Source: an uncultured Cohaesibacter sp.
GTDB lineage: Bacteria; Pseudomonadota; Alphaproteobacteria; Rhizobiales; Cohaesibacteraceae
Assembly: GCF_963667045.1 (NCBI RefSeq)
Contig: NZ_OY762934.1
Coordinates: 1,419,501 to 1,483,500 of the forward strand
Direction: 5' to 3'
Length of the DNA stretch: 64,000 nucleotides
A model generated the notes under the pieces. That model was not told where the DNA came from and did not search any database. It saw only the letters and a list, made by a program, of their open reading frames with translations. The position numbers and the translations under genes were made by a program. Below, in pieces: positions 24,067 through 29,292 of this stretch (positions are counted from its first letter, which is position 1; every line of letters starts with the position of its first letter).

Positions 24067-25794
24067 TCACTCGTGCATGGACCGCCCCGACGTGCGGGAG
24101 AGCAGAATGACCGGCACAACTCCCACCAGCACGATCATCAGCGCCGCAAGAGCCCCTTTCTCGAATGCCTCCAGCGAGGCCTGCCCATAGACAAGGGTTG
24201 CCAGCGTGTCGAAATTGAACGGACGCAGCAGGATGGTTGCAGGCAGCTCTTTCATCACATCGACGAAAACCAGCAATGCACCGGACATGAGCGCCGGGCG
24301 GATCATCGGCAGATCGATTTCCGCCAGCGTCTGCCCAGGGGTACGACCGAGCGTGCGGGCTGCGGCTTCCAGATTGGGAGAGACCCGCTGCAATCCGGTT
24401 TCCCCTGCCCCATAGGACATGGCCATGAAGCGAACGCAGTAGGCATAGAGCATCGCAGCGCCGGAACTGATCAGGATGAGCCCGGACGCGATGCCAAACC
24501 ATTCCTTCATGCCGGAGGCAATGAGATTGTCGAGCCGCGCCACCGGAATAAGGATTCCCACGGCCAGAACGGTGCCCGGCACCGCATAGCCGATTGAAGA
24601 TAGCCGTGTGACAGCCTTCACCAGCGGGCTTTTCTGGCTGCGGGCGAAATAGGCAAGCGCCGTGCCGAGAGATGCGGTGAGCAAGGCGGCAACCGACGCC
24701 AGCAGCAGCGAGTTGCCCGCTGCGGCCAGAAAGTCGCTGTTGATGTTGTCGCGCCAGTGGAACAGGACCGAGCGCATCAGAACCGATGCTGGCAGGACAA
24801 AGCCGAGCAGGATGGGCAGGAAGCAAACCAGAAAGGCCGCTCCTGCCTGCCAGCCTCTGAGCCGGAAGCTCGGCAGGGACTGATAGCGACGGGTTGTCGT
24901 GGCAAAGCGCTGCTCGCGTCGGCCGCGTCGCTCGAGCCACAGCAGCAACAGCACCACCACCAGCATGACTGTCGAAATCTGCGCAGCCCCCGCAAGGCTG
25001 GCCCGGTTGAGCCAGGTGTCATAGACACTGAAGGTGAGCGTCTTGACGCCGAAGAATTCCACCGCCCCGATATCATTGAGGCATTCCATCATGGCCAGCG
25101 TCACCCCGACGACAATTGCCGGCCGCGCCAGTGGCAAGGCTACGGCAAAGAACAGCCGCACCGGTCCGGCCCCAAGGGTCCGCGCCACATCAAGGGCACA
25201 GGCTGACTGCATCAGGAAGGTCGCCCGCGTTGTCAGGAAGACATAGGGATAGAGCACGAAGCTCATCACCAGAATGCTGCCGGGCAGCGATCTTACCTCG
25301 GGAAACCAGTAGTCACGGGCACTCCTGAAGCCGAACAGCCAGCGAACGAGCGTTTGCGCAGGGCCGGAATAGTCCAGAAGATCAACCGCCGTATAGGCGA
25401 CGATATAGGTGGGGATGGCCAGCGGCAGCAGCAACGCCCACAGGAACAGCCCCCGACCGGGAAACCGGCACATAGTCACAAGCCATGCGGAGGACACCCC
25501 GAGAAGACTGGTCAGCCCCCCAACCCCCAGCATCAACCAGACAGTCGTCGCGATAGAGCGCGGCAGCACCGTTGACAGGAGATGTGGCCAGACGTCGCCT
25601 GCGTCGCCGAACGCAATGACCAGCAGAGAAAGCACCGGAGCAATGACCAGCAGCAGCACCAGCAACAACAGCCAGTAGCCAAGACGCGAGCCGCCACCGG
25701 TGCGGGGAGGCAAGATCAAGCGAGCGAGGCGTATCGCCTCTACCACCAGCCTTCTGGCGCCTGATGCCTTGGTCGCATCTGCGGTTTCGGACAT
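24067..25794 (-). CDS. Iron(III)-type ABC transporter permease (FbpB-like)
   Basis: The 575-residue protein fuses two permease domains of about six helices each. Each half carries an EAA-type loop: SACALDVARTLGAGPVRLFF in the first and NLEAAARTLGRTPGQTLAEI in the second. This duplicated arrangement is typical of ferric-ion permeases of the FbpB/SfuB type. AAGGAGG sits just before the ATG. The matching binding protein is at 27837-28880 on the same strand, with a plus-strand MFS gene between them. No ATP-binding subunit (FbpC) is seen in the window, so it must be elsewhere. Ferric iron as substrate is inferred from the family. Confidence 0.9.
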   Translation of the reverse strand: MSETADATKASGARRLVVEAIRLARLILPPRTGGGSRLGYWLLLLVLLLVIAPVLSLLVIAFGDAGDVWPHLLSTVLPRSIATTVWLMLGVGGLTSLLGVSSAWLVTMCRFPGRGLFLWALLLPLAIPTYIVAYTAVDLLDYSGPAQTLVRWLFGFRSARDYWFPEVRSLPGSILVMSFVLYPYVFLTTRATFLMQSACALDVARTLGAGPVRLFFAVALPLARPAIVVGVTLAMMECLNDIGAVEFFGVKTLTFSVYDTWLNRASLAGAAQISTVMLVVVLLLLWLERRGRREQRFATTTRRYQSLPSFRLRGWQAGAAFLVCFLPILLGFVLPASVLMRSVLFHWRDNINSDFLAAAGNSLLLASVAALLTASLGTALAYFARSQKSPLVKAVTRLSSIGYAVPGTVLAVGILIPVARLDNLIASGMKEWFGIASGLILISSGAAMLYAYCVRFMAMSYGAGETGLQRVSPNLEAAARTLGRTPGQTLAEIDLPMIRPALMSGALLVFVDVMKELPATILLRPFNFDTLATLVYGQASLEAFEKGALAALMIVLVGVVPVILLSRTSGRSMHE

Positions 25795-26125: not shown

Positions 26126-27322
26126 GTGTCCACCGTTATGCCCAATCAATATCTTGTTCTCGTGCTGGTTTTTGTCGGCTCCTTCTCCAATGCCGCGACC
26201 GTCCCCTTCATGGGACTGTTCATCATTGAAGATCTCCAGAAGTCGCCGATGATGATCAGCGTCTACTCCCTTGTGGCCACGGTTCTGGCTGTTGCGGCGA
26301 ACCGCTTCGTGGGGCACAAGATCGATCAGGGTTGGGACATCCGCAAGCTCCTCCTCGCCTCCATCCTTGCCTATCTTGCTGCGATGAGCTCGCTGCTGTT
26401 CGTCACCAGCTACTGGACGCTTGTGACGATGTTCGCGGCCTGTCTGGCGATCGCCAACACCGCCATCGGCACCATCCTCAGCTTTGCCCGCTTCTATGCA
26501 GACCAGAGCCATCTGGACTCGGCCAAGTTCAATTCCCGTGTGCGCGCCATGATGTCCCTTGCCTGGATGGTCGCTCCGGCGCTCTGCTTTGCACTTGCCA
26601 GCGTTTATGACCACATGATCGTGTTCCAGCTGGCTGTCGCAATCGGCTGCGTCTGGTTGCTGGTGTGGAGCATCACGCTGAAGCAGCCATTTCGCCGCAC
26701 CCATCCAGCCCATCAGGATTCGGCGGCGGCCAGTGCGGCTGCGGCCAGCAATTTCAACTTCCCGCTCTGGGCCGCCACGGTCGCCTGCTTCTTCATTGCC
26801 CTTGGCAACTCGCTGGCGCTGTCCTCGGCACCGCTGTTCATGATCAAGGAAGTACATTTGCCCGACTATGCGCCGGGGCTGGCGATCACCGTCAAGTGCT
26901 TCTTTGAAGTGGTGGTCATTCTGGGCACGCCGGGGCTGCTGAAAAAGATGGGCGCCCGCAACGCGATGATCCTGGCCAGCCTGATGGCCGTTGTCTGCTA
27001 TGGCTATCTCTCAACCATCACGTCGCTGACGGAAATGTCCATAGCTTCGGCCATCGAAGGCACCTATTTCGGCATTTTCGCGGCGGTCAGCATTTCCTTC
27101 ATGCAGTCCTTTGCCCGTGGCTTCATCGGCAACTCCATGGCTCTTTACACCAATTCGATGTTCCTTTCGGGGCTGGTGGGTGGCTCGCTGATGGGCATCA
27201 TCGCCAGCTACAGCGACTATCGCACGGCCGTGCTGTCCGCCTCGCTTGCTGCGGTTGCCGGTATCATCACGCTGGTGGCGACCCGTCGTGCCGACAGGGA
27301 AGCGGAAGAACTGCCAGCCTGA
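26126..27322 (+). CDS. MFS transporter, SET-like (sugar efflux) group
   Basis: The 398-residue protein has 12 hydrophobic segments. The order ANTAIGTILSFARFYADQSH then FNSRVRAMMSLAWMVAPALC resembles the SetA/SetB sugar-efflux proteins, which share a NTA...LFALAREYAD motif and a SxxRAQxSLAWxxGPP motif. Substrates in that group are sugars and analogues, so the substrate here is inferred only. The frame opens at GTG 26126; ATG at 26138 (MPNQYLVLVLV) is an equally good start, and neither has a clear ribosome site. It lies between the two halves of the iron ABC system and is read oppositely, which looks like an insertion into that locus. Confidence 0.82.
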   Translation: MSTVMPNQYLVLVLVFVGSFSNAATVPFMGLFIIEDLQKSPMMISVYSLVATVLAVAANRFVGHKIDQGWDIRKLLLASILAYLAAMSSLLFVTSYWTLVTMFAACLAIANTAIGTILSFARFYADQSHLDSAKFNSRVRAMMSLAWMVAPALCFALASVYDHMIVFQLAVAIGCVWLLVWSITLKQPFRRTHPAHQDSAAASAAAASNFNFPLWAATVACFFIALGNSLALSSAPLFMIKEVHLPDYAPGLAITVKCFFEVVVILGTPGLLKKMGARNAMILASLMAVVCYGYLSTITSLTEMSIASAIEGTYFGIFAAVSISFMQSFARGFIGNSMALYTNSMFLSGLVGGSLMGIIASYSDYRTAVLSASLAAVAGIITLVATRRADREAEELPA

Positions 27323-27380
27323 GACGGTTCTCTCATGAGACTTTCAGCGGGAGAAACTCCCTGCCCCCCCCAAATGAAAG

Positions 27381-27406
27381 TGCCACGACGGGGAGCCGTC
27401 GTGGCA
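27381..27406 (-). terminator. Strong 11-bp hairpin
   Basis: TGCCACGACGG and CCGTCGTGGCA pair perfectly around GGAG. On the minus strand it is followed by CTTTCATTTG, a moderate terminator; on the plus strand there is no T-run. It may end a minus-strand transcript crossing the hairpin array, or protect the 3' end of the MFS transcript. Confidence 0.45.
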
Positions 27407-27442
27407 CAATCCATTAAAGGCAATCGGACAGGCGGAGAGTAA

Positions 27443-27726
27443 ACAAGGGACCAGCTTGTCCACTATTTTGGCCGAATGCCTTCATGTCCAATCCCGCATT
27501 CTTGTCTTGCGAGCAAAAGCCCGGTATGCGTAAGACTGTATCGTTCGATGACGCGCATAATAAAGGGACCAGCTTTATTGTCATGCCACCGAATGCGGGA
27601 CCGTTTGGGGGTGCGCTCCTTACAGTCGGTCGACGCGAGAGGACCAGTATCGCATCTGCCGTCTGCCAAGCGCTTATTGGGTGAAGGGTCGCCTAACGGC
27701 CATGGACTGTAGGACCAGTACAGTCC
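27443..27726. ncRNA. Candidate structured RNA: four hairpins with invariant GGACCAG loop
   Basis: Four hairpins share the 7-nt loop GGACCAG with different stems. Hairpin 1 (27443-27459) is ACAAG/CTTGT. Hairpin 2 (27559-27579) is AATAAAG/CTTTATT, with ATGAC/GTCAT outside it after a 6-nt bulge. Hairpin 3 (27635-27653) is GCGAGA/TATCGC with one mismatch. Hairpin 4 (27704-27726) is GGACTGTA/TACAGTCC. The stems are unrelated in sequence yet pair, so structure rather than sequence is kept. Loops are 118, 75 and 71 bases apart. Strand is undetermined; on the minus strand the loop reads CTGGTCC. I do not recognise a known family. Confidence 0.6.
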
Positions 27727-27807
27727 GCCTCGGCTAGCCACTGGGGGCAAATCGGCTTGCCTTCAACCAATTCGGTAAAATTCCTTTTTTCTTTCTGTTC
27801 AAACCAC

Positions 27808-27826
27808 CCGGATCATGCCGATCCGG
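27808..27826 (-). terminator. Hairpin after the iron-binding protein gene
   Basis: CCGGATC (27808-27814) pairs with GATCCGG (27820-27826) ten bases after the stop. The following minus-strand sequence, GTGGTTTGAAC, has only a short T run, so termination is plausible but weak. Confidence 0.45.
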
Positions 27827-27836
27827 TCAGAGGTCT

Positions 27837-28880
27837 CTAGTTGGCACCAGCATCAAAATCCACGATGTCGACCAGCTCTGACGCCTTCTTGCGCGCATCA
27901 GCAATCTTGCCGAGGGCAACGCTATCGGGCGTGAAACTGCCCCAGCTCTTGACGATGGCTGACGGCTCGACACCATCCAGCACAGGATATTCGAAGTTGC
28001 CTTCCGCATAGATCTGCTGGGCTTCGGCTGAAGACAGGAACTCCATCAGCTTGATGGCATTGTCCCGGTTGGGCGCGTGCCTGGCCAACAGCATGCCGGA
28101 GATGTTGACATGGGTGCCGCGCCCGTCGGTGTTTGGAAACAGAATGCGAACCGAAGCGGCCCATTCCTTCTGTTCGGGCTCCTTGTCGTTGGTTTGCATC
28201 TGACCCATGTAGTAGGTGTTGCCGAGTGAGAGATCACATTCACCCGCATAGACGGCCTTGACCTGGGCGCGATCATTGCCGGTTGGGCGACGCGCCAGAT
28301 TGGCCTTCAGCCCTTCCAGCCATGTACGGGTTTCTTCTTCACCGTGATGCACGATCATCGAGGCGATCAGGCCGATGGTGTAGTCATGCTGGCCGGAACG
28401 GGTGCAGATGCGGCCCTTCCATTTCGGATCGGCCAGGTTTTCATAGGTGATACTATCCTGCTTGACCCGTTCTTTCGAGGCGTAGACCACCCGTGCCCTC
28501 GTGGTAAGACCAAACCACTGGTCGTCAGCATCACGGTATCGGGCGGGAATGTTTGCCTTGAGAATATCGGAAGCCACAGGCTGGGCGATGCCCTGCTGCT
28601 TTGCAGCCTGAAGACGACCAACATCGGTACTGAGCAGCAGGTCGGCGGGGGAGTTCTCCCCTTCTGCCTCGATACGAGTCTCCAGCCCCTGCTTGGCAAA
28701 GATCAGATTGGCGCGAATGCCCGTCTCCTTCTGGAAGGCTTCCAGAAGCGGCTCAATCAGGAACGGCTGGCGGTAAGAGTAGATATTCACTTCGCTGGCA
28801 GCATGGCTGGCGTTTGCGGATATCGTGAGCAGGGCGGCAACGGATACCGTCGCCCGCAAGACCCGGTAGGAATGTCTCAT
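27837..28880 (-). CDS. Iron(III) ABC transporter substrate-binding protein (FbpA-like)
   Basis: The 347-residue protein has a signal peptide (RVLRATVSVAALLTISANAS, cleaved after SHA) and then EVNIYSYRQPFLIEPLLEAF, the opening of ferric-binding proteins of the FbpA/FutA type. TTRARVVYASKERV, GLIASMIVHHGE and GECDLSLGNTYYMGQM are family blocks, and paired tyrosines in NTYYMG are the usual ferric ligands. The ATG at 28880 is preceded by GGAGACAGAC; an in-frame TTG at 28904 is not. It pairs functionally with the permease at 24067-25794 although the genes are not adjacent. A palindrome at 28939-28951 upstream may be its control site. Confidence 0.92.
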   Translation of the reverse strand: MRHSYRVLRATVSVAALLTISANASHAASEVNIYSYRQPFLIEPLLEAFQKETGIRANLIFAKQGLETRIEAEGENSPADLLLSTDVGRLQAAKQQGIAQPVASDILKANIPARYRDADDQWFGLTTRARVVYASKERVKQDSITYENLADPKWKGRICTRSGQHDYTIGLIASMIVHHGEEETRTWLEGLKANLARRPTGNDRAQVKAVYAGECDLSLGNTYYMGQMQTNDKEPEQKEWAASVRILFPNTDGRGTHVNISGMLLARHAPNRDNAIKLMEFLSSAEAQQIYAEGNFEYPVLDGVEPSAIVKSWGSFTPDSVALGKIADARKKASELVDIVDFDAGAN

Positions 28881-29292
28881 GTCTGTCTCCAATGGTGGGT
28901 TCAAGGCCCAAGATCGGTTGTTATGCGCTGAACTTGATGCGAAACGTTCGCAAAGTCAACGCAAAAGCTGTAACAAAACAGTGAGTTAGGCATGGACAGG
29001 CCGTTACAGTTCTTAGAATCTTTCAAATTGTCATTGGTAAGTGGCTTGAATTGTTGCATTTCATTCTCAAAAATTGAATACGAAATTGGCTGCATTTAAT
29101 TGTTGAAAATTATTTTCATATTTTAAGTCCCAGCCCCGTTTCCCAATGCGATGGGCGACATGGACCACTGCTCGGTCCGCACGATTGCTTGCGCATGAAA
29201 TTGTCGTGACATCCTCGGATTTTCCATACCAATGACAGGCCGATTGGTTTAGGTCATGACTAAACACGCCCAGCCAAGATTTGGAGACTGAC
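28881..29292. other. Divergent non-coding region with a palindrome
   Basis: This 412-bp gap between the iron-binding protein and the HD gene carries both promoters and the palindrome GCGAA-ACG-TTCGC (28939-28951), which is framed by TTGA (28934-28937) and TCAA (28956-28959). Nothing else is recognisable. Confidence 0.5.
28934..28959. promoter_or_regulatory. Palindrome upstream of iron-binding protein gene
   Basis: GCGAA-ACG-TTCGC is a perfect interrupted palindrome nested in TTGA...TCAA, 54 to 79 bp before the ATG at 28880. It is a likely operator, but it does not match a RirA, Irr or Fur consensus that I can recall. Confidence 0.35.

Follow-up and report, generated by a model that had tools for sequence, protein, structure and literature searches.

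What is one short loop sequence doing four times over behind an iron-uptake gene? In the stretch of Cohaesibacter DNA analysed here (the window, 64,000 nt long), the heptamer GGACCAG occurs on the plus strand at 27448, 27566, 27641 and 27712, and every one of these copies is the loop of a hairpin. A preliminary description of the locus had reported the four sites on unrelated stems. Both the sites and the stems are found at the same positions, including the single mismatch in the stem of the third unit (loop at 27641).

The heptamer as such is not rare, as the window holds 11 copies (the four of the array included) against 8.3 expected. The rarity of the array comes from the clustering of the loops rather than from the frequency of the heptamer. 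In 800 kb of the chromosome that carries the window (5.24 Mb), only two heptamers form at least three such loops within a 400-nt span, where a loop is seven nucleotides directly closed by at least five pairs, G-U allowed. One is the GGACCAG array. The second comes from a simple tandem repeat of DNA (G000:C1, about 1215122-1215345), whose unit holds a hairpin with the loop CCTGTCG. Four hairpins with one loop are thus far above chance.

Conservation of the fold and its distribution

Homologues were recovered by BLAST within the genus and then by tracking fbpA orthologues, which added the four most divergent genomes. Each of the 18 Cohaesibacter genomes has the structured element once (a single match to model R1), with four (C/U)UGGUCC loops when read on the strand of fbpA. 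As these homologues indicate, it is a conserved folded RNA element of about 400 nt. UGGUCC is invariant at all four places in the 18-genome alignment, hence in every one of 72 loops. Nine of the 72 begin with U and the others with C, so the original claim of seven constant bases stands for UGGUCC and fails for the first position. The stems differ in the 17 other Cohaesibacter genomes while the loops stay constant.

Selection on RNA structure, which the preliminary description had proposed, is borne out by the pairing. Pairs were counted in alignment A4, which holds 14 genomes. The divergent genomes G004, G008, G010 and G017 were left out; in the 18-genome alignment A2 their 3' half aligns poorly, and G017 is misaligned at the 5' end of the element as well. 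Changes on both sides are seen in 36 of 70 pairs, compared with 5-13 when the 3' partners are slid, a control that favours a structure drawn, like this one, from the sequence of the window's own genome. Likewise, 92.0% of 955 pairing cells are paired, compared with 34.6-46.3% after sliding. None of 500 shuffles, which ignore relatedness, equals the observed value in any of five pairing measures. Neither the bias of a structure taken from a single sequence nor the ignored relatedness accounts for so many changes on both sides. RNAalifold, applied to all 18 genomes, gives 37 pairs, of which 22 are changed on both sides. For 27330-27836 the fold z is -4.6 on the minus strand and -3.9 on the plus strand, both better than shuffles. 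The homologous arrays with covarying stems that had been proposed as a check are therefore present in all 18 genomes, with the covariation measured in 14.

The four hairpins are real, and they belong to a longer fold that also comprises outer helices and a terminator. The parts are listed in Table 1. Support is weakest for helix PD and for the linker hairpin of three pairs. The loops have exactly seven nucleotides in the window, as first described; in other genomes the closure of the loop varies. Hairpin B is not directly closed in five genomes (G007, G015, G005, G016 and G012), where 3-4 unpaired nucleotides flank the heptamer on each side. Six genomes lack closure at seven in hairpin A: G005, G016 and the four divergent ones. 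The sequence AATTGG of the conserved fold start is also present in the four divergent genomes, though G017 is misaligned there. The AU-rich segment just 5' of this start could be an RNase E site.

Table 1. Features of the locus, with positions in the window; pair counts and paired cells refer to the 14-genome alignment
Feature	Positions	Strand	Pairs	Pairs changed on both sides	Cells paired	Remarks
fbpB-like permease gene	24067..25794	-				Pfam BPD_transp_1
MFS gene, SetB-like	26126..27322	+				below NCBIfam cut-off; between element and fbpB
Whole structured RNA element	27368..27786	-				5' AU-rich segment to terminator tail; 18/18 Cohaesibacter genomes
Intrinsic terminator	27368..27407	-	12	8		hairpin 27407-27380 and T-rich tail
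Outer helix PD	27419..27480	-	8	4	76.4%	27480-27472 pairs 27427-27419; around hairpin D
Hairpin D	27441..27461	-	7	4	97.9%	loop CUGGUCC 27454-27448
Hairpin C	27559..27579	-	7	3	95.9%	loop CUGGUCC 27572-27566
Small linker hairpin	27600..27612	-	3	1	81%	C-rich loop; weak support
Outer helix PB	27613..27673	-	6	3	100%	27673-27668 pairs 27618-27613; around hairpin B
Hairpin B	27632..27656	-	8	3	87.5%	loop CUGGUCC 27647-27641; mismatch near loop
Outer helix P0	27676..27771	-	11	4	95.5%	27771-27760 pairs 27687-27676; around hairpin A
Hairpin A	27704..27726	-	8	6	87.6%	loop CUGGUCC 27718-27712
GAAUUGG, conserved fold start	27767..27773	-				invariant in the 14-genome alignment
fbpA, ferric-iron binding protein, parent gene	27837..28904	-				likely ATG 28880 (by inspection)
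TGA-N9-TCA box	29104..29118	-				resembles RirA IRO box; 5' of fbpA in 14/14 genomes

Among the genomes sampled, no other genus yielded the element. At E<=0.1, model R1, which covers the core with hairpin B, matches every one of the 18 Cohaesibacter genomes; in the rest of the order it matches 3 of 379. These three are taken to be chance matches, because two lack TGGTCC and the third has two copies 401 nt apart. Among 385 genomes of the class, the window's own genome is the sole match at E<=0.001; the searches of order and class were run with the stricter filters, and diverged members may escape R1. Viral contigs and plasmids gave no matches to the element. A pattern scan of named genomes returned at least three records, all from Cohaesibacter, with a pattern that cannot match some members, for example G007.

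The place 3' of fbpA was compared outside the genus as well. An fbpA match is present in 123 of 150 genomes, the genus included, and the best-scoring 26 loci outside the genus were examined. None of the 26 has GGTCC in a stem of more than four pairs, and none has a heptamer with two loops on stems of at least five. In 22 of them the next same-strand ORF starts within 385 nt past the fbpA stop. A sister genus offers a separate observation. At one of its loci (L048), the last 234 nt before the contig end hold, by inspection, one hairpin 3' of fbpA with GGUCC near its loop, followed by a GC-rich hairpin. This arrangement may be a relative in reduced form or a chance likeness. The fbpA match spans an in-frame TGA in G092, G126 and G156, three genomes that belong to a single genus (g34).

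Coding sequence can be set aside as an explanation. No coding frame is common to all homologues, and their longest ORFs, of 35-99 amino acids, lie in differing frames. No Rfam family matches the window at gathering score, and for 27330-27900 an E value of up to 5 gives two matches only, both far below their gathering scores. A search of the literature on Cohaesibacter small RNA and on GGACCAG hairpin loops found no published account of the element. The RNA family is well supported and absent from Rfam 15. The lack of a common coding frame and of a known family agrees with the first description, which had seen no coding frame and recognised no known family.

Strand, neighbouring genes and iron control

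The first description had read the loop as a GGA motif on the plus strand. Two lines of evidence place the RNA on the other strand. The first is the side of the T-rich tail at the terminator. A terminator scan calls a terminator on the minus strand only. In the 12 nt past the hairpin, the minus side has 6-10 T and the plus side 1-6, and the minus side is richer in 18 of 18 genomes (141 T in all, compared with 59). In the first 8 nt it is richer in 17 genomes, with a tie in one; in G005 and G016, T is fairly abundant on either side. The second is the kind of pair that replaces a Watson-Crick pair. Read on the minus strand, the cells of the 70 pairs comprise 825 Watson-Crick, 54 G-U, 17 A-C and 59 other mismatches (14 genomes). 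A looser count over the first eight positions around each loop gives 38 G-U against 29 A-C, and alone is not decisive. From the tail and the excess of G-U over A-C, the RNA most likely has the sense of fbpA. The loop in the RNA would then be CUGGUCC, not GGACCAG.

The identity of fbpA is clear from its phmmer match to FbpA 1q35 (E 3e-110) and its Pfam SBP families; the name fbpB is our reading from the pairing with fbpA. In all 18 genomes the element lies directly 3' of fbpA on the same strand, with an intrinsic terminator at its end. It had been described as a free-standing unit between convergent genes. This arrangement does not hold: the element follows fbpA, and the opposite-strand MFS gene separates it from fbpB in 10 of the 14 genomes examined. 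In the remaining four (G007, G005, G016 and G012) there is no MFS gene at this place, and the element lies between fbpA and fbpB. The presence of the MFS gene in ten genomes and its absence in four point to an iron operon that was split, or rejoined, within the genus. The fold is kept with and without the intervening gene. Since it is intact where the MFS gene parts it from fbpB, the element is not simply a leader of fbpB.

One simple explanation of this position is that the element acts only in cis. The terminator and a stable fold would protect the fbpA mRNA, giving more binding protein than permease, and no trans partner would be involved. Its place 3' of the binding-protein gene, the terminator at its end, and the permease gene that comes next in four genomes all fit such a role. 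Stability needs no constant loop, however, and constant loops on changing stems would be left unexplained; the element is also kept where the MFS gene already parts fbpA from fbpB. A purely cis function is quite improbable.

There is no sign of a promoter of the element's own upstream of the fold, since fbpA shows no synonymous constraint towards its end and no promoter-like site precedes the fold. In the last two blocks of fbpA, synonymous-site conservation is 0.55 and 0.45 compared with a mean of 0.59, which is not unusual. This comparison, like that of the upstream box below, covers 14 genomes, without G004, G008, G010 and G017. Between fbpA and the fold, a consensus scan detects nothing promoter-like. 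Inside the element it gives two minus-strand sites, where 0.8 would be expected for the region; the better of these overlaps hairpin C and, by inspection, is not kept in the alignment. Most likely, the fbpA transcript of Cohaesibacter has this element as its structured 3' end.

Iron control in this bacterial group is known mainly through RirA and Irr. For fhuA, a RirA IRO box of the form TGA-N9-TCA is described (PMC10510648, available text). The similar box 5' of fbpA in 14 of 14 genomes makes iron control of fbpA and the element likely. The bare pattern is common, with 26 occurrences in the window against 18.4 expected. In the window's own genome the box is palindromic except at its centre, and in the 14 genomes a nearly invariant stretch follows it. 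The fbpA promoter region also holds an inverted repeat, TGCGAA-NNN-TTCGCA (28938-28952), beside a TTGAC-like box. It is largely kept in the alignment and may be a second operator.

Possible partners of the constant loop

Why should one loop be held constant on four drifting stems? The constant loop, present four times, probably serves to grip one partner molecule several times. The model preferred here is a 3'-end RNA of the fbpA mRNA that displays a single sequence in four copies to one partner in trans. When fbpA is expressed, in low iron, processing would probably release an sRNA of about 400 nt. Its four exposed CUGGUCC loops would base-pair in trans with one partner RNA, either an sRNA or a few mRNAs. 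With four equal docking sites it could be a sponge or regulator that acts multivalently and is linked to iron uptake. This model is put forward tentatively, with somewhat less than even confidence. Pairing is favoured over recognition by a protein because the letters of the loop are fixed and its geometry is not.

Candidate partners were sought through the complement of the loop. GGACCAG is not enriched around gene starts, as it occurs at 3 of 679 genes of the window's own genome and 4 of 658 genes of a second one (G011), while 210 permutations of the heptamer give means of 4.3 and 3.1. This search covered 0.8 Mb of each genome, with starts picked by a simple script. None of 297 orthologue pairs between the two has GGACCAG at the gene start in common. 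Within the iron genes, GGACC is absent from fbpA in 14 of 14 genomes, which counts for little, since 24% of 58 like-sized gene pairs also lack it in both genomes. In fbpB it is present in 8 of 13 genomes at differing places, with no conserved copy at the start site. Only 1 of 18 RNAs has GGACC as a site for loop pairing inside the same RNA. For tRNA partners, GGACC is present in none of the three tRNA genes of a 0.8 Mb sample, a set too small to carry weight. A likeness of the loop itself to a threonine anticodon loop (CU-GGU-CC) was set aside: by the rules for tRNA anticodon loops it would have C at position 37, and closure at seven nucleotides does not hold in every case.

Another possibility is a protein sponge or scaffold, in which the loops would be the target of an RNA-binding protein with sequence specificity, much as CsrB is for CsrA, but with another protein in CsrA's place. 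The fixed UGGUCC of every loop speaks for it, as does the lack of enrichment of loop complements at gene starts. CsrA itself, the partner first suggested, was rejected: its family (PF02599) is found in 0 of 18 Cohaesibacter genomes, with the positive control found in 3 of 14 named genomes. The size of the loop and its closing pairs also vary, most plainly in the flanked hairpin B of five genomes, which speaks against recognition of a hairpin by a protein. Nor do further copies occur between genes: two genomes, sampled over 0.8 Mb each, hold no further CUGGUCC or UUGGUCC hairpin with direct closure (at least four pairs) outside predicted genes, which counts against the pairing model as well. 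A protein partner seems unlikely.

The loops might instead bind each other. By inspection GGUCC is nearly self-complementary, with four G-C pairs around one U-U, so that loops could dock within one RNA or between RNAs and form an oligomer. Palindromic kissing loops are described for OLE and GOLLD in the available text (PMC12286853). Four of the 37 RNAalifold pairs join GG and CC of loops A and D; these pairs follow from the invariance of the loops and are no test of kissing. The near-palindrome is invariant in all loops and so has no covariation to score. A pure need for pairing should permit compensating changes, however, and none is seen in 72 loops. The central U-U mismatch counts against kissing as well, and the invariant U before GGUCC would be left without a role. 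Self-kissing is rather unlikely.

A broader proposal is a genus-specific RNA, made whenever the iron-capture protein is made, which would represent a new multivalent class. Its four identical near-palindromic loops would either join RNAs into an oligomer or bind one kind of partner in several copies. This proposal is doubtful. Under the preferred model of pairing in trans, iron uptake would be coupled to other genes through RNA. Because the loops are fixed on drifting stems, the question of the partner is directly testable.

Comparison with known RNAs

The sponge RNAs CsrB and RsmZ consist of many hairpins showing a short repeated motif, with GGA loops for CsrA. The element likewise has multiple hairpins with a short repeated motif. 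It differs in its transcribed loop, CUGGUCC, which contains no GGA, and in the absence of CsrA.

RNAs derived from 3' UTRs offer a parallel for its position. Like them, the element comes directly after a coding gene, shares its strand and ends at an intrinsic terminator in 18 of 18 genomes, a likeness read from sequence only. A specific example can be found in gltIJKL, where gltI is the binding-protein gene of the ABC transporter. SroC, a 163-nt RNA from gltIJKL of Salmonella and E. coli, is a known sponge of GcvB and ends at an early intrinsic terminator after gltI (PMC9438474, available text). The element resembles SroC in its location, ended by a terminator 3' of a binding-protein gene. The available text on SroC mentions no repeated loop, in contrast to the element (PMC9438474).

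Large structured RNAs provide a third comparison. In GOLLD and ROOL, two symmetric kissing loops are described as highly conserved (PMC12286853, available text). Like OLE, GOLLD and ROOL, the element is a large covarying RNA; its GGUCC is near-palindromic by inspection, and an oligomer would be hypothetical. Kinship with them finds no support in Rfam, where the element has no match.

The nearest likeness in architecture is to SmelA075 and SmelA099, sRNAs of Rhizobiales with 3-4 hairpins, one loop motif and diverged stems (PMC3927594, available text). The element shares with them several hairpins, a constant loop, variable stems and the same bacterial order. Their loop is CCUCCUCCC, an anti-Shine-Dalgarno sequence, and they occur in several copies per genome (PMC3927594, available text). 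The element, in contrast to these RNAs as there described, has (C/U)UGGUCC in 72 of 72 loops and is present as a single copy per genome, 3' of fbpA. By the tests made, it is a member neither of the SmelA075/SmelA099 group nor of CsrB. Its rare feature is that the stems drift while the same six letters stay fixed in each of the four loops, in every member. If the proposal of a new class is true, the element would represent a multivalent RNA class outside both CsrB and the RNAs with anti-Shine-Dalgarno loops.
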